A stretch of DNA of 64,000 nt from Radicibacter daui (lineage in GTDB: Bacteria; Pseudomonadota; Alphaproteobacteria; Radicibacterales; Radicibacteraceae): the NCBI GenBank assembly GCA_030657355.1, contig CP131056.1, positions 3,492,501 through 3,556,500 of the forward strand, written 5' to 3'. The stretch's first letter is position 1. Each line of letters opens with the position of its first letter. The position numbers were made by a program, and so were the translations under genes. The notes beneath the pieces are model-generated. The model did not search any database. It saw nothing but the letters and a program-made list of their open reading frames with translations, and was not told the DNA's origin. This document shows positions 50,952 through 61,939 of the stretch, one piece after another.

Positions 50952-52375
50952 TGGCTGCGGGGCGACGGGCCACCGGCCGGCTCCTGCCGGCAATGGCGGC
51001 CCTTGCCGGCCTCTTGCTGCTGGCCGCCTGCGGGCCAACGGATCAGCCTGCCCCGGCTCAAGCCAGCATTGCCTCCCCGGCCGCACTGACTTCGCCACTG
51101 CCGGCGCCCCCGGTAACCCTGGGCGGCGCCACCGGCCGCGCTTTTGCCGGGGAGCCTGCCTTTGGCCTGCCGGCCGCCAATCTCGCTCCCGGCGATCTGC
51201 GCGACTTTGTGGCCGGCAACCGCATCTTCAATACCGACTGGCGGCCCCTCGATCCGGCACGGCCCGAAGCGCCCTTCAGCGGCCTTGGCCCCTATTTTGA
51301 AGAAAGCTCCTGCACCGCCTGCCATCATCGCGACGGGCGCGGTGACCGGGAAACGCTACTGCTGCATCTCTCCATCGCCGGCTCCCCGGCTGAAGCGCCG
51401 CACCCGCTTTTCGGCACCCAGCTCCAGCGCAAGGTCCTGCCCGGCCTTGAGCCGCTGCCCTATCCTGCCCTCGTCTGGCAGCAAAGCCGTGCCTCCCTTG
51501 CCGGCGGCGAAACGGTAACACTGGAAAAACCCGTCTGGCGCTGGGCCGGGCCGCCGCCGGAAATGGCCGTCAGCGCCCGCCTCGCCCCCCCGATGATCGG
51601 CCTTGGCCTGCTGGCCGCCGTGCCGGAAAATGAAATCGCCGCCCTGGCCGACGCGGACGATAAGGATGGCGATGGCATCAGTGGCCGCATGAACCGGGTG
51701 ACGGACAGCGTAACCGGCAAGGAAAGTCTCGGCCGCTTCGGCTGGAAGGCCAGCGTGGCAAGCCTGCTGGAGCAGGTGATGATTGCGACCCACCGGGATT
51801 TCGGCCTCACCTCCGCCGCCTTCCCCGCCCCGGATTGCCCGGGCGGCGAACGTCAGGCTGCCTGCCGCGCCGCCGCCGGCAGCAACCCTACCGAACTGCC
51901 CGCCCGTTTTGCCGATCAGCTGACCGTCTATAGCCACCTGCTGTCGGTGCCGGAGCGGCGCGGCGGCGGTGACCCGCAAATCGCCCGCGGCTTTGCCCTC
52001 TTCCGCTCGCTCGGCTGCGCCGCCTGTCACCAGGAGACGCTGACGACCGGCAGCAGCCCCTTTGCCGAACTGGCAAACCAGACCATCCACCCCTTCACCG
52101 ACCTGCTTCTGCACGATATGGGCGACGGGCTTGCCGATGGCGTGCCGCAGGGCGGGGCCACCGGCACCGAATGGCGCACCGCCCCGCTCTGGGGCCTTGG
52201 CCTTGCCGAAACCGTCGCCAGCAAACCGCCCGTCTATCTGCATGACGGCCGCGCCCGCACCCTTACCGAAGCCATTCTCTGGCATGGCGGGGAAGCGCAA
52301 AAGGCGCGGGACGGTTTTGCGCAATTGGGCGCGGACGAGCGGGCTGCGGTTCTGACGTTCCTCGCGGCGCTTTAG
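50951..52375 (+). CDS. Di-heme oxidoreductase (DHOR) family lipoprotein
   Basis: A 474-residue secreted c-type cytochrome-like protein. The N terminus is a lipoprotein signal with lipobox LAAC (lipidated Cys C27). Two haem-binding motifs, CTACH (about 118-122) and CAACH (about 357-361), and WRTAPLWGLGLAE and YLHDGRARTLTEAILWHGGE match the DHOR family (formerly called thiol oxidoreductase). Such proteins occur with iron-uptake or imelysin genes elsewhere; none is adjacent here. The electron donor and acceptor are unknown. Starts at a TGATG overlap with the preceding small gene. Confidence 0.88.
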   Translation: MAAGRRATGRLLPAMAALAGLLLLAACGPTDQPAPAQASIASPAALTSPLPAPPVTLGGATGRAFAGEPAFGLPAANLAPGDLRDFVAGNRIFNTDWRPLDPARPEAPFSGLGPYFEESSCTACHHRDGRGDRETLLLHLSIAGSPAEAPHPLFGTQLQRKVLPGLEPLPYPALVWQQSRASLAGGETVTLEKPVWRWAGPPPEMAVSARLAPPMIGLGLLAAVPENEIAALADADDKDGDGISGRMNRVTDSVTGKESLGRFGWKASVASLLEQVMIATHRDFGLTSAAFPAPDCPGGERQAACRAAAGSNPTELPARFADQLTVYSHLLSVPERRGGGDPQIARGFALFRSLGCAACHQETLTTGSSPFAELANQTIHPFTDLLLHDMGDGLADGVPQGGATGTEWRTAPLWGLGLAETVASKPPVYLHDGRARTLTEAILWHGGEAQKARDGFAQLGADERAAVLTFLAAL

Positions 52376-53883
52376 GTGAGATCTGCCGGCAGAAGGCTTG
52401 CCGGCACATTCTGATAACTGACAGGCCGCAGAAACCGCCGGATGGCCAGCGTCCCTACCGAAGTCGCGCCAAAATTGGTCGAGGCCGGATAGGGGCCGCC
52501 ATGGACCATGGCACTGCAAACCTCAACTCCGGTCGGGAAGCCATTCACCAGCACGCGACCGGCCTTGCGCTCCAGCACGGGGAGCAGTTGCGCAGCCAGC
52601 GGATGGTCACCCTCATCCATATGCAAGGTGGCCGTAAGCTGGCCTTCAAGGCTGCGGGCAACGGCCATCATTTCCGCCTCGTCCGCGACCACGACGGCGA
52701 TCCCCACCGGCCCGAAGACTTCGTGTGCCAATTCAGGGTTCGCCATCCAGACCTTGCCGCTGGTCCGGAGCAGGCACGGCGCACCGTAACGGCCTTCGGC
52801 CTCCACCTTCAGGACTGTTTCCACTCCAGCAACAGCCTGCAGCCGGTCAGCACCCTGCCGGCAAGCTCCGGCAATCCCGTCTGTCAGCATTAGCTGCGGC
52901 GCCGGCTCCGCAAGTGCGGTTCGGGTGGCCGCAACCAGCGGCCCCGCCTGCCCCGCCGGCAGGATGGCGACACCAGGATTGGTACAAAACTGGCCGGCCC
53001 CCATAGCCAACGACCCGGCCCAACCGCGTCCGATCGCCTCACTGCGGGCCGCGAGTGCCGCCGGCAGCAGGAACATCGGATTGATCGAGCCCAGCTCCCC
53101 AAAGAACGGAATGGGTTGCGGCCGCGCGGCGCAAAGATCGAATAACGCCCGGCCGGCCGCAAGCGACCCGGTAAAACCAACCGCCCCAATCAACGGATGC
53201 CGGACGAGCGCGTGCCCCACCGCAGCCGTGTTGCCCTGGACAAGGCTGAATGTGCCCGCTGGCACGCCGGTGGCGTCTATTGCGGCCAGGATAGCTTCGG
53301 CTACCAGCTCGCTGGTGCCGGGATGGGCCGGATGACCCTTTACCACCACCGGGCATCCCGCCGCCAGCGCCGAGGCGGTATCTCCTCCGGCAACCGAAAA
53401 GGCGAGCGGAAAATTGGAGGCGCCGAACACAGCCACCGGCCCGATCGGCCGCTGCATCATCCTGATATCCGGGCGCGGCAGCGGCTGACGCTCCGGCAGC
53501 GCACCATCGTGCCGCCGGTCAAGATAATCCCCGGCGCGAATATGGGCGGCAAACAGCCTGAGCTGTCCCGCCGTGCGCCCCCGCTCGCCCTCAAGGCGAG
53601 CCGGCGGCAGTCCGCTCTCCCGGCAGGCGATCTCCGTTATCTGCTCGCCCCGGGCCTCGATCTCACCGGCAATTGCCTCCAGAAAGGTTGCCCGCTGCTC
53701 GCGCGGCAGCCAGCCATAAACGCCAAATGCCTCTTCCGCCGCCCGTACTGCCCGGTCGATCTGATCGGCACTGGCAACGCCGAAACTCTCGACCGTACCG
53801 CGCACCGGGGCCGAAAAGAACCGCTCTTCGCTCGCCACCCAGTCACCGGCGATCAGATGCTTGCCCTGGGGTTTGAAAGTCAC
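52372..53883 (-). CDS. Aldehyde dehydrogenase, 2-oxoglutarate-semialdehyde dehydrogenase type
   Basis: NAD(P)-dependent aldehyde dehydrogenase, 503 residues from GTG 53883, which has GGAG 6 nt upstream and lies one base after the preceding stop. FGASNFPLAFSVAGGDTASA and VVKGHPAHPGTSE form the cofactor site. FTGSLAAGRALFD follows, then the catalytic Glu in FFGELGSINPMF and the catalytic Cys in GAGQFCTNPG. The sequence type matches the 2-oxoglutarate-semialdehyde dehydrogenases of aldarate and pentose degradation, and the nearby KdgD-type gene supplies exactly that aldehyde. The stop overlaps the convergent di-heme gene by 4 bp. Confidence 0.88.
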   Translation of the reverse strand: MTFKPQGKHLIAGDWVASEERFFSAPVRGTVESFGVASADQIDRAVRAAEEAFGVYGWLPREQRATFLEAIAGEIEARGEQITEIACRESGLPPARLEGERGRTAGQLRLFAAHIRAGDYLDRRHDGALPERQPLPRPDIRMMQRPIGPVAVFGASNFPLAFSVAGGDTASALAAGCPVVVKGHPAHPGTSELVAEAILAAIDATGVPAGTFSLVQGNTAAVGHALVRHPLIGAVGFTGSLAAGRALFDLCAARPQPIPFFGELGSINPMFLLPAALAARSEAIGRGWAGSLAMGAGQFCTNPGVAILPAGQAGPLVAATRTALAEPAPQLMLTDGIAGACRQGADRLQAVAGVETVLKVEAEGRYGAPCLLRTSGKVWMANPELAHEVFGPVGIAVVVADEAEMMAVARSLEGQLTATLHMDEGDHPLAAQLLPVLERKAGRVLVNGFPTGVEVCSAMVHGGPYPASTNFGATSVGTLAIRRFLRPVSYQNVPASLLPADLT

Positions 53884-53884
53884 G

Positions 53885-54853
53885 TCAAGCTCCGACAGCC
53901 TGCAGGGCCGCTGCGATATAGCCGTATGAAAAAGCGAAGGCAGCCCCTTCCGGGTCCCGTGCATCAATCGCGGGAACATGATCGGGCATGACCATGTACT
54001 GATAGCCAACCTCTTTCAGCACACGCAGGGCGGCGATCATGTCCACGTCGCCCTCATCCAGGAACACCTCGGTAAAACCGAGTTTGCGGCCCTTGATGTT
54101 GCGGAAATGGATATTGTGCAGTTTGCCCCGTGTGCCGAACCAGCGGATCACGTCATCCATTTCACGCGCCGGATCTTCCAGATTTTCCGCGACGGTGCCG
54201 ATGCAGAAGTTAAGCCCGTGGAACGGGCTGTCATGCAGGCCGACAAACTGCTTCATCCCTTCGACCGTGCCCAGGATACGGGTTACGCCGCGATAACCCG
54301 GCGGGGTCCAGGGATCGTGCGGATGGCAGGCAAGCCGCACACCGGCCTGTTCCGCTACCGGCACCACGCGGGCGAGGAAATAATCGGCCCGTGACCATAT
54401 CTCGTCTTCACTCAGCGGCGAGCAGGGCGGCGCAGCGTCAGGATCCATCTTTTCCCAGCGAAAGGATGAATTGCGGGAGCCACCACGGCCGATCTCGTCT
54501 TCGCTGCGCGGAATGCCAATATAGTTGAAGTTATATTTTGCCGCCGGGATGCCGGCGGCGCCGCAGTCCTCGATCAGCTTGCATACCGCCGCAATCTGCG
54601 CATCGCGCTCCGGACCGCCCAGCAAGATGTCGGCGCAAGGCGCCCTGTCGACCGGCACTGACGGTAACGGCAACTGGATCATGTCCAGCACAAGCCCGCG
54701 CCGCTCCACGTCTGCCCGATGCGCCTTTAGCGCATCCAGCGACCAGCCCCTCCAGTTGCCGGGCGGATCAAGGCAGATATGTCGGATGCCAAACTGCGCC
54801 AGCATGGCAAAATCGGCGTCGTCCCGCGGCTCTTTCTGGGTCCCGATATACAT
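53885..54853 (-). CDS. UxuA-like sugar-acid dehydratase (mannonate dehydratase family)
   Basis: A 322-residue TIM-barrel protein of the UxuA family, which removes water from D-mannonate to give 2-keto-3-deoxygluconate. Metal-site motifs are visible: RLACHPHDPW, LNFCIGTV, LHNIHFRNIKG and MPDHVPAI. It is shorter than the E. coli enzyme (about 390 residues), as in many non-enteric relatives. It is the first gene of a two-gene unit with the aldehyde dehydrogenase (1 bp gap). The pathway context with a KdgD-type enzyme makes an aldarate-like substrate possible instead of mannonate; see findings. Confidence 0.82.
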   Translation of the reverse strand: MYIGTQKEPRDDADFAMLAQFGIRHICLDPPGNWRGWSLDALKAHRADVERRGLVLDMIQLPLPSVPVDRAPCADILLGGPERDAQIAAVCKLIEDCGAAGIPAAKYNFNYIGIPRSEDEIGRGGSRNSSFRWEKMDPDAAPPCSPLSEDEIWSRADYFLARVVPVAEQAGVRLACHPHDPWTPPGYRGVTRILGTVEGMKQFVGLHDSPFHGLNFCIGTVAENLEDPAREMDDVIRWFGTRGKLHNIHFRNIKGRKLGFTEVFLDEGDVDMIAALRVLKEVGYQYMVMPDHVPAIDARDPEGAAFAFSYGYIAAALQAVGA

Positions 54854-54865
54854 TCATTCCCTCCA

Positions 54866-54896
54866 GTCATACGTATTGACCTATGTCATAGTATGA
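54866..54896. promoter_or_regulatory. Candidate GntR operators upstream of the uxuA-like gene
   Basis: TCATA-G-TATGA (54886-54896) is a perfect odd palindrome, and GTCATACGTATTGAC (54866-54880) is a related inverted repeat ending six bases before it. Both lie 13-43 bp upstream of the uxuA-like start, where a repressor would cover the promoter. Confidence 0.55.
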
Positions 54897-54932
54897 TTCT
54901 TGAAGGATGCAAGCCCCTCCCTGCCGACGGCG

Positions 54933-55688
54933 TCACTCCGGCGCCGCGGCGGACGCCACCATTGGCCCGGCATGAACGGCCAGCGCCACCGCCCTGTAGC
55001 GTTTTTGCGAATTCTCCAGATGCGTGCGCATGGCACTGCGGGCGGCCTCGACATCCTGCCGCGATATGGCGTCGGCAATCGCCCCATGCTCGGCAAGAAT
55101 TGTCTGCAGATAATCGGCCGATTGCACCTCGGTCAGGCTGGGCAGGGTACTGCGTGGAATCGCAGACGGTCCGAACCGTGACAGTGCGTCGACGAAGAAT
55201 GCGTTGTTGGAGGCGCGGGCGATGGCCATGTGAAATTCGAAATCGGCTTCAGCCGTCCCGCGCGCCGCCAGCGCCACCTGCCGCATCTCAAAGTTTTTCT
55301 CAGATATTTCATAATCTTGAGCACTTGATCGTCGGGCAGCAGCCAGGCCAGCAGCTTCCACCTCGATGCCACAGCGAAACTCCAGCATCTCTATCGTGCG
55401 CGGGATGGATCGCTTCTCGTCTGCTGACAGCATGCTTGATGCCGGCGGCAACCGTTCCGCGACGAAAACGCCTTTTCCCTGGGCCGGATATACCAGCCCC
55501 GCAGCGCGCAATTCGGCAAATGCTTCACGGATAACCGTCCGGCTGACGCCAAAGCGCTCCATCAGAACCGGCTCGGTCGGCAACTGCGATCCGGGTGCGA
55601 GTACACCTTGCGTCACCTCGGCACGGATCGCCTCAACAACACCGTCGGCAAGCCTCGCCTTTCCTTTTGTGGACGCTGGCGCGTTCAT
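54933..55688 (-). CDS. GntR-family regulator, FCD (FadR-like) subfamily
   Basis: A 251-residue repressor-type protein. The N-terminal winged helix has RLADGVVEAIRAEVTQGVLA, then GSQLPTEPVLMERFGVSRTV and IREAFAELRAAGLVYPAQGKG. The C-terminal FCD domain has MLEFRCGIEVEAAGLAAARR and ADFEFHMAIARASNN, with the metal-type Asp/His. FCD regulators commonly respond to sugar acids. It sits between the uxuA-like/dehydrogenase arm and the kdgD/transport arm, and related palindromes flank both, so it is the probable pathway regulator. Confidence 0.9.
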   Translation of the reverse strand: MNAPASTKGKARLADGVVEAIRAEVTQGVLAPGSQLPTEPVLMERFGVSRTVIREAFAELRAAGLVYPAQGKGVFVAERLPPASSMLSADEKRSIPRTIEMLEFRCGIEVEAAGLAAARRSSAQDYEISEKNFEMRQVALAARGTAEADFEFHMAIARASNNAFFVDALSRFGPSAIPRSTLPSLTEVQSADYLQTILAEHGAIADAISRQDVEAARSAMRTHLENSQKRYRAVALAVHAGPMVASAAAPE

Positions 55689-55715
55689 CGATCCACCATT
55701 GCCTTTCCGATTATG

Positions 55716-55740
55716 TCGTACTATGAGTCGTCATATGTCA
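55716..55740. promoter_or_regulatory. Candidate GntR operators in the gntR-kdgD divergent promoter
   Basis: TCGTACTATGA (55716-55726) differs by one base from TCATACTATGA, the reverse complement of the perfect site before the uxuA-like gene. GTCGTCATATGTCAT (55727-55741) contains a second half-site pair. Confidence 0.55.
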
Positions 55741-55770
55741 TCTGCCAATACATGCTGTGACAGCGTATGA

Positions 55771-56742
<972 letters not shown>

Positions 56743-56811: not shown

Positions 56812-58428
56812 ATGGCCACCCGGACCGCGAAATCCGCGTTTGTACGCAACTGCCTGGCGACAACCGTTCTGGCAACCATGGCAGCTCTTGCGGCGGCCAG
56901 CCCGGCTGCGGCAAAGACCCCGGCAGATACGCTCGTCTACGGCACCTCGCTGGCACAGGTCATTTCGCTCGACCCTCATCAGGGGCAGGAATCGACCGCC
57001 CTCGAAGTCATGGCCAACCTCTATGACCGGCTGGTGTCATCCGACGCTTCCGGCAAGCTGAGCCCACAGCTCGCCGAAAAATGGGATATCGACGACAAGG
57101 GCATCACCTTTCACCTGAAGGATGCGACCTTCAACGGCTCCGGCAATCCGGTGACAGCCGAGGATATGGTCTGGTCGATCCGCCGGGTCATCAAGCTCAG
57201 CCAGGCTCCGGCTGCCAAGCTCGGCTCTGTTGGCTACAACGCCGGCAACATCGACAGCCTGACCAGGGCCATCGACGACAAGACCTTCTGGATAGGTCTA
57301 ACCGGCAAGGTCGCGGCCGACTTTCTCCTTTATCGCCTGTCCGAGGTTGCCGCTTCAGTTATCGACAGCAAGACGGTCATGGCCCACGCAAAGGACAGTG
57401 ATTTCGGCAATGACTGGCTTCGCACCCACTCCGCCGGGTCGGGACCGTTCGACCTGCAGCGCTGGGCGCCCAACGACATCATCATCCTGTCAGCAGCGAA
57501 GAACTACTGGGGTCCGGCCGCCAGGATGAAGCGGGTGGTGATGCGCCACGTTCCGGAAAGCCAGGCCGAACGCCTGATGCTGGAACAGGGTGACATCGAC
57601 ATCGCCGGCTCGCTCTCGCCGGCCGACATCGCCTATTTCGCCGACAAGAAGGAGGTGAAGGTCGAGAAGGTGCCCACGGGCGGCTTCTACGTCATGGCTA
57701 TGAACGTCACCGCCGAACCGCTCTCCAAACCAAAGGTTCGCGAAGCAATCCTCCACGCCATCGATTTCGATGGCATCCAGAAGAGCATCATGGGGCCCTA
57801 TGGCGTAAAACGGCTGGTGCCGGTGCCGGCCGATTATGAGGGCGCCATCCCGGACCCGGACGTGAAATACGACCCCGCGCTCGCCCGCAAGCTGCTGGCC
57901 GAGGCAGGTTATCCCGACGGTTTTTCGACCACCATCAAGACGATCGCCCAGACCCCGCGCGTTGAGCTGGCAACAGCAATCCAGGCTTCCCTCGCCGATA
58001 TCGGCATTCAGGCCCAGGTCCTGCAGGGCAGTGGGGCCGATATCGTCGGCGATCACCGGGCCCGCAAATTCGATATCCTGATCCCTCAGACAGGCGCCTA
58101 CATGCCCAATGCCATGGGAGCGATGGAACAGTTCACCTCGAACCCCGACAATTCTCTGGCAGCCAACAATGCCGGGAACTTCGTCTGGCGATCCGGCTGG
58201 GACATCCCGGAACTGACGGCGCTTACGGCAAAGATCATGACGGAAAATGACGCATCGAAGCGTGTCGGCATGTATGAGCAGTTGCAGCACATGTTTGTGG
58301 ACGCCGTGCCTGCGGTCCAGCCGATGTTCGAGCGCTACCTGCCGATTGCCATCGCCGCGGATGTGCACGGCTACAAAGGCCACCCCCAGCAGGTGACCCG
58401 CGTCGATCAGGTGACGAAGTCGGAGTAA
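56812..58428 (+). CDS. ABC transporter substrate-binding protein, family 5 (DppA/OppA type)
   Basis: Periplasmic binding protein, 538 residues, with a very strong ribosome binding site (AAGGAGGAAACAG). The signal peptide has the hydrophobic segment CLATTVLATMAALAAASPAA and probable cleavage after AAA (about residue 34). LVYGTSLAQVISLDPHQGQE and FHLKDATFNGSGNPVTAEDM, then VREAILHAIDFDGIQ, are family-5 signatures. The family is best known for peptides and nickel, but members also carry sugars, opines and glycosides. Here it lies directly behind kdgD, so a sugar-acid or conjugate ligand is likely. Confidence 0.88.
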   Translation: MATRTAKSAFVRNCLATTVLATMAALAAASPAAAKTPADTLVYGTSLAQVISLDPHQGQESTALEVMANLYDRLVSSDASGKLSPQLAEKWDIDDKGITFHLKDATFNGSGNPVTAEDMVWSIRRVIKLSQAPAAKLGSVGYNAGNIDSLTRAIDDKTFWIGLTGKVAADFLLYRLSEVAASVIDSKTVMAHAKDSDFGNDWLRTHSAGSGPFDLQRWAPNDIIILSAAKNYWGPAARMKRVVMRHVPESQAERLMLEQGDIDIAGSLSPADIAYFADKKEVKVEKVPTGGFYVMAMNVTAEPLSKPKVREAILHAIDFDGIQKSIMGPYGVKRLVPVPADYEGAIPDPDVKYDPALARKLLAEAGYPDGFSTTIKTIAQTPRVELATAIQASLADIGIQAQVLQGSGADIVGDHRARKFDILIPQTGAYMPNAMGAMEQFTSNPDNSLAANNAGNFVWRSGWDIPELTALTAKIMTENDASKRVGMYEQLQHMFVDAVPAVQPMFERYLPIAIAADVHGYKGHPQQVTRVDQVTKSE

Positions 58429-58431
58429 ACC

Positions 58432-59472
58432 ATGGCTCAGCCGATCATGAAGCAGCTTGCAGCCATGAGGCTGGACAAGCGCCTTGTGCAACTTGTCCTC
58501 AGTCTGTTGGCGCTGGTCGCGATCACCTTCGTGATCGGCCGGATGCTTCCCACCGACCCGGTGGGAAGCATCGTCGGAGAGCTGGCGGACCCCAGGGCCT
58601 ATGCCGCAATGCGCGAACGCCTGGGACTGGACAAGCCGGTCGCGGAACAGTTCCTCCTTTATTTCTGGCACCTGCTGCAGGGCGATCTCGGTGTCGCGGC
58701 GCTGACCGGCAACTCCGTGTCGGACGATCTTTGGCACGCCTTTCCCGCCACACTGGAGCTAGCCACTCTGGCGATTGTTCTCTCTGTGATAGTCGGGGTT
58801 CCGCTGGGGCTGCTGGCCGCCCTTAAACGGGATAGCTGGGTCGACCAGCTTATCCGCGTAATCTCCTTGGTCGGCCACTCTGTGCCCGTCTTCTGGCTCG
58901 GCATGATCGGGTTGCTCGTCTTCTATGCCGGACTACAGCTGGTCGGCGGTCCGGGGCGGATCGACGTCTTCTACGAAGGGCTGGTCCCGCCGGTCACCGG
59001 CATGATCCTGATCGACAGCTTGCTGGCCGGGGATATGGAGATCTTCCAGAACGCCCTTACCCACATCATCCTGCCGGCCTCCATGCTGGCCTATTCGGCC
59101 ATGGCCTACATCACGCGCATGACACGCAGCTTCACGCTCGAGCAACTGTCGCAGGACTATGTCACCGCTGCCCGAGCCAAGGGCGTCAGCCCGGCCGGCA
59201 CGCTTTATCGCCATGTCCTGCCCAACATTGCCGTCCAGCTCATCACGGTCATCGCCATCTCCTATGGCGGACTGCTGGAAGGCGCCGTGGTCACGGAGAT
59301 CGTGTTCTCCTGGCCCGGTATCGGCCAGTACATGACCAGTGCCCTGCTGATCGGCGACATCAATGCCGTGGTGGCAGCGACGATCGTCATCGGCATCGCC
59401 TTCATGCTGCTGAATTTCCTGTCGGACATCGCCTACCAGCTTCTCGACCCCCGGACCCGGGAGGCCAACTGA
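58432..59472 (+). CDS. ABC transporter permease, DppB type
   Basis: Inner-membrane permease of 346 residues with the DppB-like N terminus (RLVQLVLSLLALVAITFVIG, RMLPTDPVGSIVG), ERLGLDKPVAEQFLLYFWHL, about six membrane segments, and the ATPase-contact loop YVTAARAKGVSPAGTLYRHV. It starts 3 bp after the binding-protein stop, with GGAG in the end of that gene, so the two are co-translated. Confidence 0.9.
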   Translation: MAQPIMKQLAAMRLDKRLVQLVLSLLALVAITFVIGRMLPTDPVGSIVGELADPRAYAAMRERLGLDKPVAEQFLLYFWHLLQGDLGVAALTGNSVSDDLWHAFPATLELATLAIVLSVIVGVPLGLLAALKRDSWVDQLIRVISLVGHSVPVFWLGMIGLLVFYAGLQLVGGPGRIDVFYEGLVPPVTGMILIDSLLAGDMEIFQNALTHIILPASMLAYSAMAYITRMTRSFTLEQLSQDYVTAARAKGVSPAGTLYRHVLPNIAVQLITVIAISYGGLLEGAVVTEIVFSWPGIGQYMTSALLIGDINAVVAATIVIGIAFMLLNFLSDIAYQLLDPRTREAN

Positions 59473-59473
59473 G

Positions 59474-60370
59474 ATGGACATGACAAAAGCTGATCTGACC
59501 GGCGCTCGGCGGCCTTCGTTGCTGCATCGCTTCCTGACACTTCCCTTCTGGTCCGCGCTGCGGCGCGAGCCTCTGGGCTTTGCCGGGGTTATCGTCCTGG
59601 CGTTGTTGGTGCTTGTTGCCCTCAGCGCTCCGCTGCTTGCCCCCTATGATCCGAACCGGCAGGTACTGGACAGCTCCCTCCTGTCGCCTTCATCCTCACA
59701 CTGGGCCGGAACGGACGAATTCGGTCGCGACATCTTCAGCCGGCTGGTCTGGGGAGCCAGGCTTACATTGCGCACCGTCTTTTCGGTCTCCGCCATCGTC
59801 GGCCCCATCGGCCTCATTATCGGTGTTGTCGCCGGCTATTTCGGCGGCCGGGTCGATGCGGTGCTGATGCGTCTCACCGACATTGTGCTCTCTTTCCCTT
59901 CTCTGGTGCTGGCGCTTGCTTTTGCCGCGGCGATCGGCCCCGGCCTCAACACCGCCATTGTCGCCATCTCGCTCACCTCATGGCCGCCCATCGCCCGCCT
60001 CGCCCGGGCCGAGGCTCTTGTCGTGCGAAACTCCGACTATGTGTCAGCCGCACGGATGTATGACGCCTCGAACCTGCGCCTGCTCACGCTCTACATCGCC
60101 CCGATGTGCATTCCCTCGGTCGTGGTTCGTCTTACACTCAATATGGCAACCATCACTCTGACGGCAGCATCGCTGGGTTTCCTGGGTCTCGGCGCCCAGC
60201 CGCCGGCCCCCGAATGGGGCGCAATGATCTCGGCAGGCCGCAAATACATGATCGACTACTGGTGGGTCGCGGTGATGCCGGGCCTCGCCATCCTGCTCAC
60301 CAGCCTTGCCTTTAACGTCGTCGGCGACACCCTTCGCGATATCCTGGATCCTCGCCATGAACGCGGCTGA
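59474..60370 (+). CDS. ABC transporter permease, DppC type
   Basis: Partner permease, 298 residues. FAGVIVLALLVLVALSAPLL is the first membrane helix, HWAGTDEFGRDIFSRLVWGA the conserved DppC segment, and DYVSAARMYDASNLRLLTLY the ATPase-contact loop (with MYDAS where RALGAS is usual). It begins one base after the DppB-type gene, and its end overlaps the next gene by 14 bp. Confidence 0.9.
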   Translation: MDMTKADLTGARRPSLLHRFLTLPFWSALRREPLGFAGVIVLALLVLVALSAPLLAPYDPNRQVLDSSLLSPSSSHWAGTDEFGRDIFSRLVWGARLTLRTVFSVSAIVGPIGLIIGVVAGYFGGRVDAVLMRLTDIVLSFPSLVLALAFAAAIGPGLNTAIVAISLTSWPPIARLARAEALVVRNSDYVSAARMYDASNLRLLTLYIAPMCIPSVVVRLTLNMATITLTAASLGFLGLGAQPPAPEWGAMISAGRKYMIDYWWVAVMPGLAILLTSLAFNVVGDTLRDILDPRHERG

Positions 60371-61199
60371 ACCCACACTCGATATCCGAAACCTGCGCGT
60401 CACCTACGCCCGCGGCATCGTCGCGGCCGTTGACGGCATCGACCTGCAACTGGCGGGCGGGCGGCTGGGCATTGTCGGCGAAAGTGGCTCCGGCAAATCC
60501 ACGGTCGGCCGCGCCATCATGCGGCTGCTCTCCAGTTCAGCCCGGGTCGAGGCCGATCGCATGATGTTTGCCGGAATGGACCTGGCCCGGCTGGGCGAAC
60601 GGGCACTCCGGCAACTGCGCGGCAAACAGATGGCGCTCATCATGCAGGACCCGCGTTATTCGCTGAACCCGGTCCTGACTATTGGCGCCCAGGTGGCAGA
60701 GGCCGCACATCTGCATCTGGGGCTCCGGGGCAAGGCGGCACAGCAAGCCGGTGCCGAAATGCTCGCCCGGGTGCGCATCCAGAATGTCGCCCGGGTGACG
60801 GGCCTTTACCCGCACCAGATTTCCGGGGGGATGGGCCAGCGGGTGATGATCGCCATGATGCTGATCGCCCGCCCCCGCCTGGTGATCGCTGACGAGCCGA
60901 CATCGGCGCTTGACGTCAGCGTACGGGCGGAGGTGCTGGAGCTTCTTGACAGCCTGGTGCGCGAACAGGGCTCCAGTCTCATCCTCATCAGCCACGATAT
61001 CCGCATGGTCGCCGCCTTTTGCGACGAGGTTGCCGTCATGTATCGCGGGCGCGTGGTGGAGAAGCTGGCTCAACTCGAAAATGCCGCCCACCCCTATACC
61101 CGTGGGCTGCTCGCGGCACTGCCGGATCCCAAACATCCCGTGGCACGGCTGGCAACACTCGATCGTGCCCTGCTGTCGCAACTGGAGACCAGCCGATGA
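60357..61199 (+). CDS. ABC transporter ATP-binding protein, DppD type
   Basis: Cytoplasmic ATPase, 280 residues from ATG 60357, inside the end of the permease gene. Walker A is GESGSGKST, the signature is ISGGMGQRV, Walker B LVIADEPTSALD and the switch His is in LILISHDIRM. YTRGLLAALPDPKHP near the end belongs to the oligopeptide ATPase C-terminal region. The usual Fe-S-type Cys cluster of DppD is absent, since the protein ends shortly after this point. Overlaps the next gene by ATGA. Confidence 0.9.
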   Translation: MNAAEPTLDIRNLRVTYARGIVAAVDGIDLQLAGGRLGIVGESGSGKSTVGRAIMRLLSSSARVEADRMMFAGMDLARLGERALRQLRGKQMALIMQDPRYSLNPVLTIGAQVAEAAHLHLGLRGKAAQQAGAEMLARVRIQNVARVTGLYPHQISGGMGQRVMIAMMLIARPRLVIADEPTSALDVSVRAEVLELLDSLVREQGSSLILISHDIRMVAAFCDEVAVMYRGRVVEKLAQLENAAHPYTRGLLAALPDPKHPVARLATLDRALLSQLETSR

Positions 61200-61939
61200 A
61201 CGTGATCGAAGTGCGTGGCCTCGACGTCAGCTATGGCAAGAACGAGAGCACCAATCATGTCGTGCGCTCGCTTGATTTTGACGTGAGAGCGGGGGAAACC
61301 CTCGGCATCGTCGGCGAAAGTGGCTGCGGCAAGTCTACCGTCCTGCGCTGCCTTGCCGGGCTGGAATCAGGTTGGGGCGGCTCGATCCATGTTGATGGAA
61401 AGCCTGTCTCCTGGCGCCGGACGCGGGACGAACTGCGCCGGATGCAGCTGGTATTCCAGGACCCGTTCGGCTCGTTGCACCCGCGCCACCGCATCGGGCG
61501 CACCATTGCGGAGCCGCTACGCTGCATGGGTCAGGAAGCCAGTGACCAGACAGTGCGTGCCGCCCTCATCCAGGTTGGCCTGCCGGCGGAGTTTGCCCAT
61601 CGTTTCCCGCATGAGCTTTCCGGCGGGCAGCGCCAGCGCGTGGCCATCGCGCGCGCGCTCATCCTCGCACCGGAAATCCTGCTGCTCGACGAACCGACAT
61701 CTGCGCTCGACGTCTCGGTCCAGGCCGAGGTCCTCAACCTGCTGGCGGACAAGAAAGCCGAGGAAAAGCTGACTTATGTTCTGGTCAGCCACGACCTTTC
61801 GGTCATCTCCCATATGTGCGACCGCATTCTGGTCATGAAGGACGGCATTTTCGTCGACGAGTTTGCACCAGGCGTCATTGCAACCGGCGCTGCCCATCAC
61901 AACTATGCCCGGCATTTGATAGAGGCGAGTTTCTTTTAG
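61196..61939 (+). CDS. ABC transporter ATP-binding protein, DppF type
   Basis: Second cytoplasmic ATPase, 247 residues, starting at an ATGA overlap. Walker A GESGCGKST, LVFQDPFGSLHPRHRIGRTI, signature LSGGQRQRV, Walker B ILLLDEPTSALD and switch YVLVSHDLSV are complete. It is slightly short for a DppF because the C-terminal oligopeptide domain is trimmed. Last gene of the kdgD-transporter operon. Confidence 0.9.
   Translation: MNVIEVRGLDVSYGKNESTNHVVRSLDFDVRAGETLGIVGESGCGKSTVLRCLAGLESGWGGSIHVDGKPVSWRRTRDELRRMQLVFQDPFGSLHPRHRIGRTIAEPLRCMGQEASDQTVRAALIQVGLPAEFAHRFPHELSGGQRQRVAIARALILAPEILLLDEPTSALDVSVQAEVLNLLADKKAEEKLTYVLVSHDLSVISHMCDRILVMKDGIFVDEFAPGVIATGAAHHNYARHLIEASFF

Follow-up and report, generated by a model that had tools for sequence, protein, structure and literature searches.

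Introduction

FadR-subfamily regulators of the GntR family are described in PMC4494728 as recognising the consensus TKGT-N3-ACMA, for which exceptions are given there, and as being encoded in a divergon with their sites, with further, weaker half-boxes at a distance of 7-12 nt from the centre of the site. LutR of Bacillus subtilis, also a GntR-family dimer, governs lactate use through the operator TCATC-N1-GATGA (PMC11734750). GguR, likewise of the GntR family, controls genes for the oxidation of aldarates and hexuronates and heads regulons for glucarate and galactarate use in Halomonas that include TctABC uptake (PMC5507952).

Here we analyse a 64,000-nucleotide stretch of DNA, hereafter the window, in which the gene of an FCD (FadR-subfamily) regulator, gntR, lies between two short palindromes. 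Judging from sequence and from the retention of the sites in related bacteria, these are very probably the operators through which the local regulator switches a cluster for sugar-acid uptake and breakdown, an ordinary kind of gene switch. The T..T-N3-A..A frame of the FadR subfamily is also found at the window sites and the divergon arrangement is the same; the spacing matches but the bases differ, the sites having TC(A/G)T where the consensus has TKGT and departing from the GT/AC core. With LutR the sites have the TCAT-N3-ATGA frame in common; however, the LutR operator has C and G beside the centre whereas the window sites have A and T at both, and the neighbouring genes are kdgD, a UxuA-like gene and Opp genes. 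The likeness to GguR is one of description, and an Opp-type ABC system is found here where the GguR regulons have TctABC.

Among the matches listed in our literature search, covering titles and abstract openings, there was no account of this motif for such a regulator and no earlier description of a LutR-like operator for aldarate regulators; in this sense the operator motif had not previously been worked out for this group. TCATATGATGA in PMC11869524, a paper on a lut operator, is a cloning primer. With a concrete operator that is conserved for FCD regulators of several alphaproteobacterial families, the controlled genes would become findable from sequence, an uncharacterised UxuA-like enzyme placed together with KdgD under one regulator would narrow the substrate search, and a comparison of motif-bearing homologues with motif-free paralogues could show how DNA specificity changes among FadR-type regulators.

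The gene cluster

On the minus strand, gntR (54933-55688, 251 aa) is followed by a gene for a UxuA-like TIM-barrel protein, a putative sugar-acid dehydratase (53885-54853, minus; Pfam UxuA, 130.5 bits, exceeding the cut-off), and by an aldehyde dehydrogenase gene, aldH (52372-53883, minus; Pfam Aldedh, best solved relative 3v4c with 704 bits). The GTG start of the latter lies one base past the UxuA-like stop, and the two are therefore predicted to form one operon. The UxuA-like protein remains under both NCBIfam cut-offs for mannonate dehydratase (69.5 vs 199.55 bits for TIGR00695, 107.5 vs 191 bits for NF003027), and as a near full-length, stronger UxuA match of 379 bits is encoded elsewhere in the genome (G000:C1:3363370-3364542), the window gene is probably not the mannonate dehydratase. 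In an alignment with 3ban, the H, C, H and D-H positions are kept, which we take to be metal ligands and catalytic residues.

In the opposite direction, kdgD (55828-56742, plus) encodes a 5-dehydro-4-deoxyglucarate dehydratase (TIGR03249, 395.4 bits, cut-off 373.95) and has no second copy in the genome at E 1e-30. At this threshold, 4ur7 (487 bits), a keto-deoxy-galactarate dehydratase presumably from Agrobacterium, is the one solved structure that matches it; the two belong to the same enzyme family, the window kdgD differing in that it adjoins a divergent UxuA-like gene. The neighbouring kdgD alone would make aldH a candidate 2-oxoglutarate semialdehyde dehydrogenase, the protein being below the NF042993 cut-off for that activity (96.1 vs 770 bits). 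Five Opp-type ABC genes come after kdgD in the same direction, for a family 5 solute-binding protein (56812-58428, plus), OppB/DppB- and OppC/DppC-type permeases (58432-59472 and 59474-60370, plus), an OppD-type ATPase (60306-61199, plus, as the open reading frame is listed, with a true start probably further in) and an OppF/DppF-type ATPase (61196-61939, plus).

Two palindromes flanking gntR

Candidate operator 1 (54886-54896, minus) reads TCATAGTATGA on the plus strand and TCATACTATGA when followed in the direction in which the UxuA-like gene is read, with its centre 38 nt ahead of the ATG of that gene. Candidate operator 2 (55716-55726, plus) reads TCGTACTATGA, and its centre is located 33 nt ahead of the gntR ATG and 107 nt ahead of the kdgD GTG. 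When TCATACTATGA is compared with TCGTACTATGA, 10 of 11 bases are the same and one differs, and the two sites occupy the two intergenic regions that flank gntR. The initial annotation had described near-identical palindromes on opposite strands ahead of the UxuA-like gene and of kdgD/gntR, with the regulator gene in between, and these coordinates agree with both points. It had also described a second related inverted repeat within 20 bp of each. Such repeats, CTATGTCATAG (54881-54891) and TATGAGTCGTCATA (55722-55735; both unstranded), are present, but overlap operators 1 and 2, respectively, and on reading are extra half-boxes, TCATA in the latter case, and not full second operators. At about 7 and 12 nt from the centres of the operators, they fit the extra boxes at 7-12 nt in PMC4494728.

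A promoter-like element for gntR, TTGGCA-N17-CATAGT (55720-55748, minus), is a weak match (one found vs 0.6 expected in shuffles), and its -10-like CATAGT falls inside operator 2. The same search ahead of the UxuA-like gene and of kdgD found no promoter.

Conservation of the motif among relatives

A scan of genome contigs with GntR yielded 40 loci, and the full comparison set comprised 72 homologous loci, in which the motif was taken as TCRT-N3-AYGA located no more than 400 bp ahead of the aligned start. Among the genomes searched, the family and order of the window are represented by its own genome only; in the class, 2 of 385 genomes (own included) match GntR at E 1e-48, and in the order of genome G266 a match at E 1e-45 is found in 30 of 317, 29 of them from one genus. 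Among GntR proteins at least 41% identical and with LPTEP, the window included, the motif is found upstream in 34 of 37 loci. Without the window's own locus, the count is 33 of 36 close LPTEP-type relatives, so that conservation upstream of orthologous clusters, which the initial annotation had set as a test, is borne out.

The two intergenic regions of the window have a G+C content of 49% compared to 65% for the window as a whole, and the strict form of the motif is about as frequent in the genome as its control (4 vs 3, see below), both as expected for chance palindromes in AT-rich intergenic DNA. We nevertheless regard chance as extremely improbable, as 200 composition-keeping shuffles of the 37 loci gave a mean of 0.79 and a maximum of 5, and as the position of the site ahead of kdgD is conserved in one genus. 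TCRT-N3-AYGA has no match in the 26,148 coding bases of these 37 genes. As 29 of the 37 loci are from one genus, that of G266 (27 of these with the motif), the rows cannot be counted as independent. Of the eight loci from other genera, seven have the motif upstream (the window, L005-L009 and L017), whereas in L010 it is present only behind gntR, just ahead of kdgD. L076 and L079 have it on neither side of gntR. For the remaining 32 homologues, mostly more distant, the upstream count is zero, a contrast that is partly one of distance, only four of them reaching at least 41% (L080, L048, L049 and a partial match in L027). One of the 32, L080 (44%), has the motif downstream of gntR, ahead of kdgD.

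The consensus TCRTA-N-TATGA, as proposed initially, is too narrow for these relatives. The spacer is ACT, AGT or ATT in the window, L005-L008 and L017, and ATG or CAT, which are reverse readings of each other, in most other loci, most relatives having TCAT-ATG-ATGA; on sequence grounds, the shared core is TCRT-N3-AYGA. In a promoter alignment of one genus (28 rows from 27 distinct loci, as L050 and L051 are one), the block AAA-TCRT-A-NN-ATGA-CTT is constant except at three places, in contrast to most of the columns around it. Since the rows were picked by the pattern, which fixes the pattern letters by construction, the weight of this alignment is on the preceding AAA, the A at position 5 and the following CTT, which are not forced by the pattern and are invariant in 28 of 28 rows.

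Larger stretches were available for 16 loci, of which 13 contain kdgD. In all 13, the roughly 200 bp upstream of kdgD contain a site that differs from one of three forms by no more than one mismatch, a count made without a shuffle control and with 12 of the 13 from one genus, and in 10 of the 13 the site is 63-67 bp from the aligned kdgD start. In 12 of the 16 stretches (L051, L081-L095), which surround orthologues from the order of G266, we observed a second GntR gene, 35-38% identical, between kdgD and gntR (e.g. L081:5095-5754), and nine of these 12 have an exact or one-mismatch motif just past the 3' end of this second gene.

L005-L008, from Rhizobium, Sinorhizobium and Ensifer, carry Opp genes divergent from gntR and a UxuA-like gene after gntR; within the stretches examined, kdgD is found in L005 only and an aldehyde dehydrogenase in none of the four. 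All four have a strict TCRTANTATGA between gntR and the solute-binding gene, and all four have TCATATTATGT (one mismatch), running into CATATGA, ahead of the UxuA-like gene. In L017, gntR is surrounded by both kinds of site as well, and none of the cluster's enzymes was found in the stretch; the motif hence goes with the regulator. Conversely, the UxuA-like gene (63%) and kdgD (61%) of L027 are accompanied by another GntR (34%), and TCRT-N3-AYGA is absent from the whole 12.5 kb. The proposal of a GntR regulon at both arms is thereby supported at the sequence level, with the motif in 33 of 36 relatives, on both arms in L005-L008 and absent in L027. As a side observation, a beta-propeller, by reading lactonase-like, open reading frame comes after kdgD in L005 (8745-9914) and after the second operator in L017 (6913-8031).

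In a 45-row tree, the window GntR groups with five Rhizobiaceae rows (100/98). The motif label, assigned to 26 rows, requires 3 changes compared to a shuffle average of 14.7, in a tree with long branches and near-copies flagged and with a single motif origin in 0% of bootstrap trees.

The GntR protein and its paralogues

GntR consists of an N-terminal winged HTH (PF00392, 65.8 bits, cut-off 27) and a C-terminal FCD domain (PF07729, 83.3 bits, cut-off 24.3), in which D149, H153, H201 and H223 presumably form the FCD metal site. The protein is under the NCBIfam cut-offs for the equivalogs LldR, GlcC, UxuR, PdhR and ExuR and for the NanR subfamily model, the best score being 96.7 vs 311 bits (LldR). 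Two paralogues in the same genome, L048 (G000:C2:412736-413416) and L049 (G000:C1:2587832-2588509), are 47 and 44% identical at E 1e-40 and are placed, without the motif, inside the same larger clade of the tree.

These paralogues bear on the question of which protein would bind the palindromes. That they belong to a different regulator, with gntR merely adjoining, appears very unlikely to us: in its favour, two such close paralogues could bind similar DNA. The motif, however, follows the GntR clade across differing gene content, including the enzyme-free L017, and is missing where the same enzymes stand beside another GntR in L027. Moreover, TCRT-N3-AYGA is absent within 400 bp upstream of L048 and L049, and TCRTANTAYGA with at most one mismatch was not found within 7 kb of either; two looser TCRT-N3-AYGA matches in L049 (4281 and 8274) are outside the 400 bp upstream of the gene.

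HTH position 28, which by our alignment corresponds to FadR Arg35, is Pro in the motif-bearing clade, Asn in L048 and Ala in L049. Pro at this position is found in 40 of the 72 loci, 34 of which have the motif upstream, and three of the six without it (L029, L033 and L043) are distant and loosely aligned (28-33% identical). The 32 rows counted as having another residue include two (L027 and L038) in which the residue is unread. L080 has Leu here, yet the motif ahead of kdgD, and a Bacillus homologue (L026, 31% identical), which we guess to be LutR, has Gln in place of the clade's Pro. Pro at position 28 is not claimed as the cause of the motif. In PMC4494728, position 28 correlates with the K of TKGT, and not with the G that changes here.

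Proposed mechanism

Based on these comparisons, we consider it likely that the palindromes are the operators of a local, autoregulated GntR repressor of kdgD-opp and uxuA-like-aldH, predicted to operate as follows. A GntR dimer would bind TCRT-N3-AYGA, at operator 1 covering the region where the UxuA-like and aldehyde dehydrogenase genes start, and at operator 2 covering its own promoter together with the region ahead of kdgD and the ABC uptake genes. In so doing, GntR would most likely repress both arms and itself, and repression would be lifted when the FCD domain binds either a sugar acid or one of the keto-deoxy intermediates of the pathway. The last steps, yielding 2-oxoglutarate, would be those of KdgD and the aldehyde dehydrogenase. 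Autorepression fits, weakly, with the -10-like CATAGT of gntR being contained in operator 2.

Some FCD regulators activate, and GntR may instead bind the same sites as an activator, or repress one arm and activate the other. The distance of 107 nt between operator 2 and the kdgD start, ahead of which no promoter was found, would be compatible with this; however, the gntR -10-like element held by operator 2, albeit a weak match, and the location of operator 1 only 38 nt ahead of the UxuA-like start suit repression, and we judge activation to be unlikely. Repression of both arms is hence kept as the preferred reading. More tentatively, and with rather less confidence than we would attach to an even chance, the operator pair could link a divergent UxuA-family enzyme to the only KdgD of the genome, the former being a dehydratase of an aldaric (or other uronate-derived) acid that forms 5-keto-4-deoxyglucarate, for which unrelated dehydratases are usually responsible, with the regulator sensing the pathway via a LutR-like operator.

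Occurrence of the motif elsewhere in the genome

At zero mismatches, TCRTANTATGA is found in the 64-kb window at operators 1 and 2 only. With at most two mismatches, there are 13 matches in the window vs 20.7 expected, i.e. no enrichment. Genome-wide (5.06 Mb), the strict pattern TCRTANTAYGA occurs at four places, compared to three for the reversed pattern used as control, and genome-wide enrichment was consequently dropped as evidence. Two of the four places are the window pair, 830 bp apart, where about 0.002 such close pairs are expected from four random places. The case for the operators rests on placement and conservation, not on counting.

The other two strict places are located within a sugar-transferase-like open reading frame (L001) and between SDR- and LysR-like genes (L004), all named from their translations; because they sit there, the scan of the strict and TCAT-N3-ATGA forms lends no support to a wider regulon in the own genome. 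At L004:1501-1511 (G000:C1:4207207-4207217), a longer palindrome, CTTTCATAATATGAAAG, is located between the SDR-like and LysR-like genes, perhaps the LysR-like regulator's own site. Separately, TCATNNNATGA is found at 23 places genome-wide vs 2 for the reversed control, an excess that is perhaps due to ATGA start/stop overlaps.
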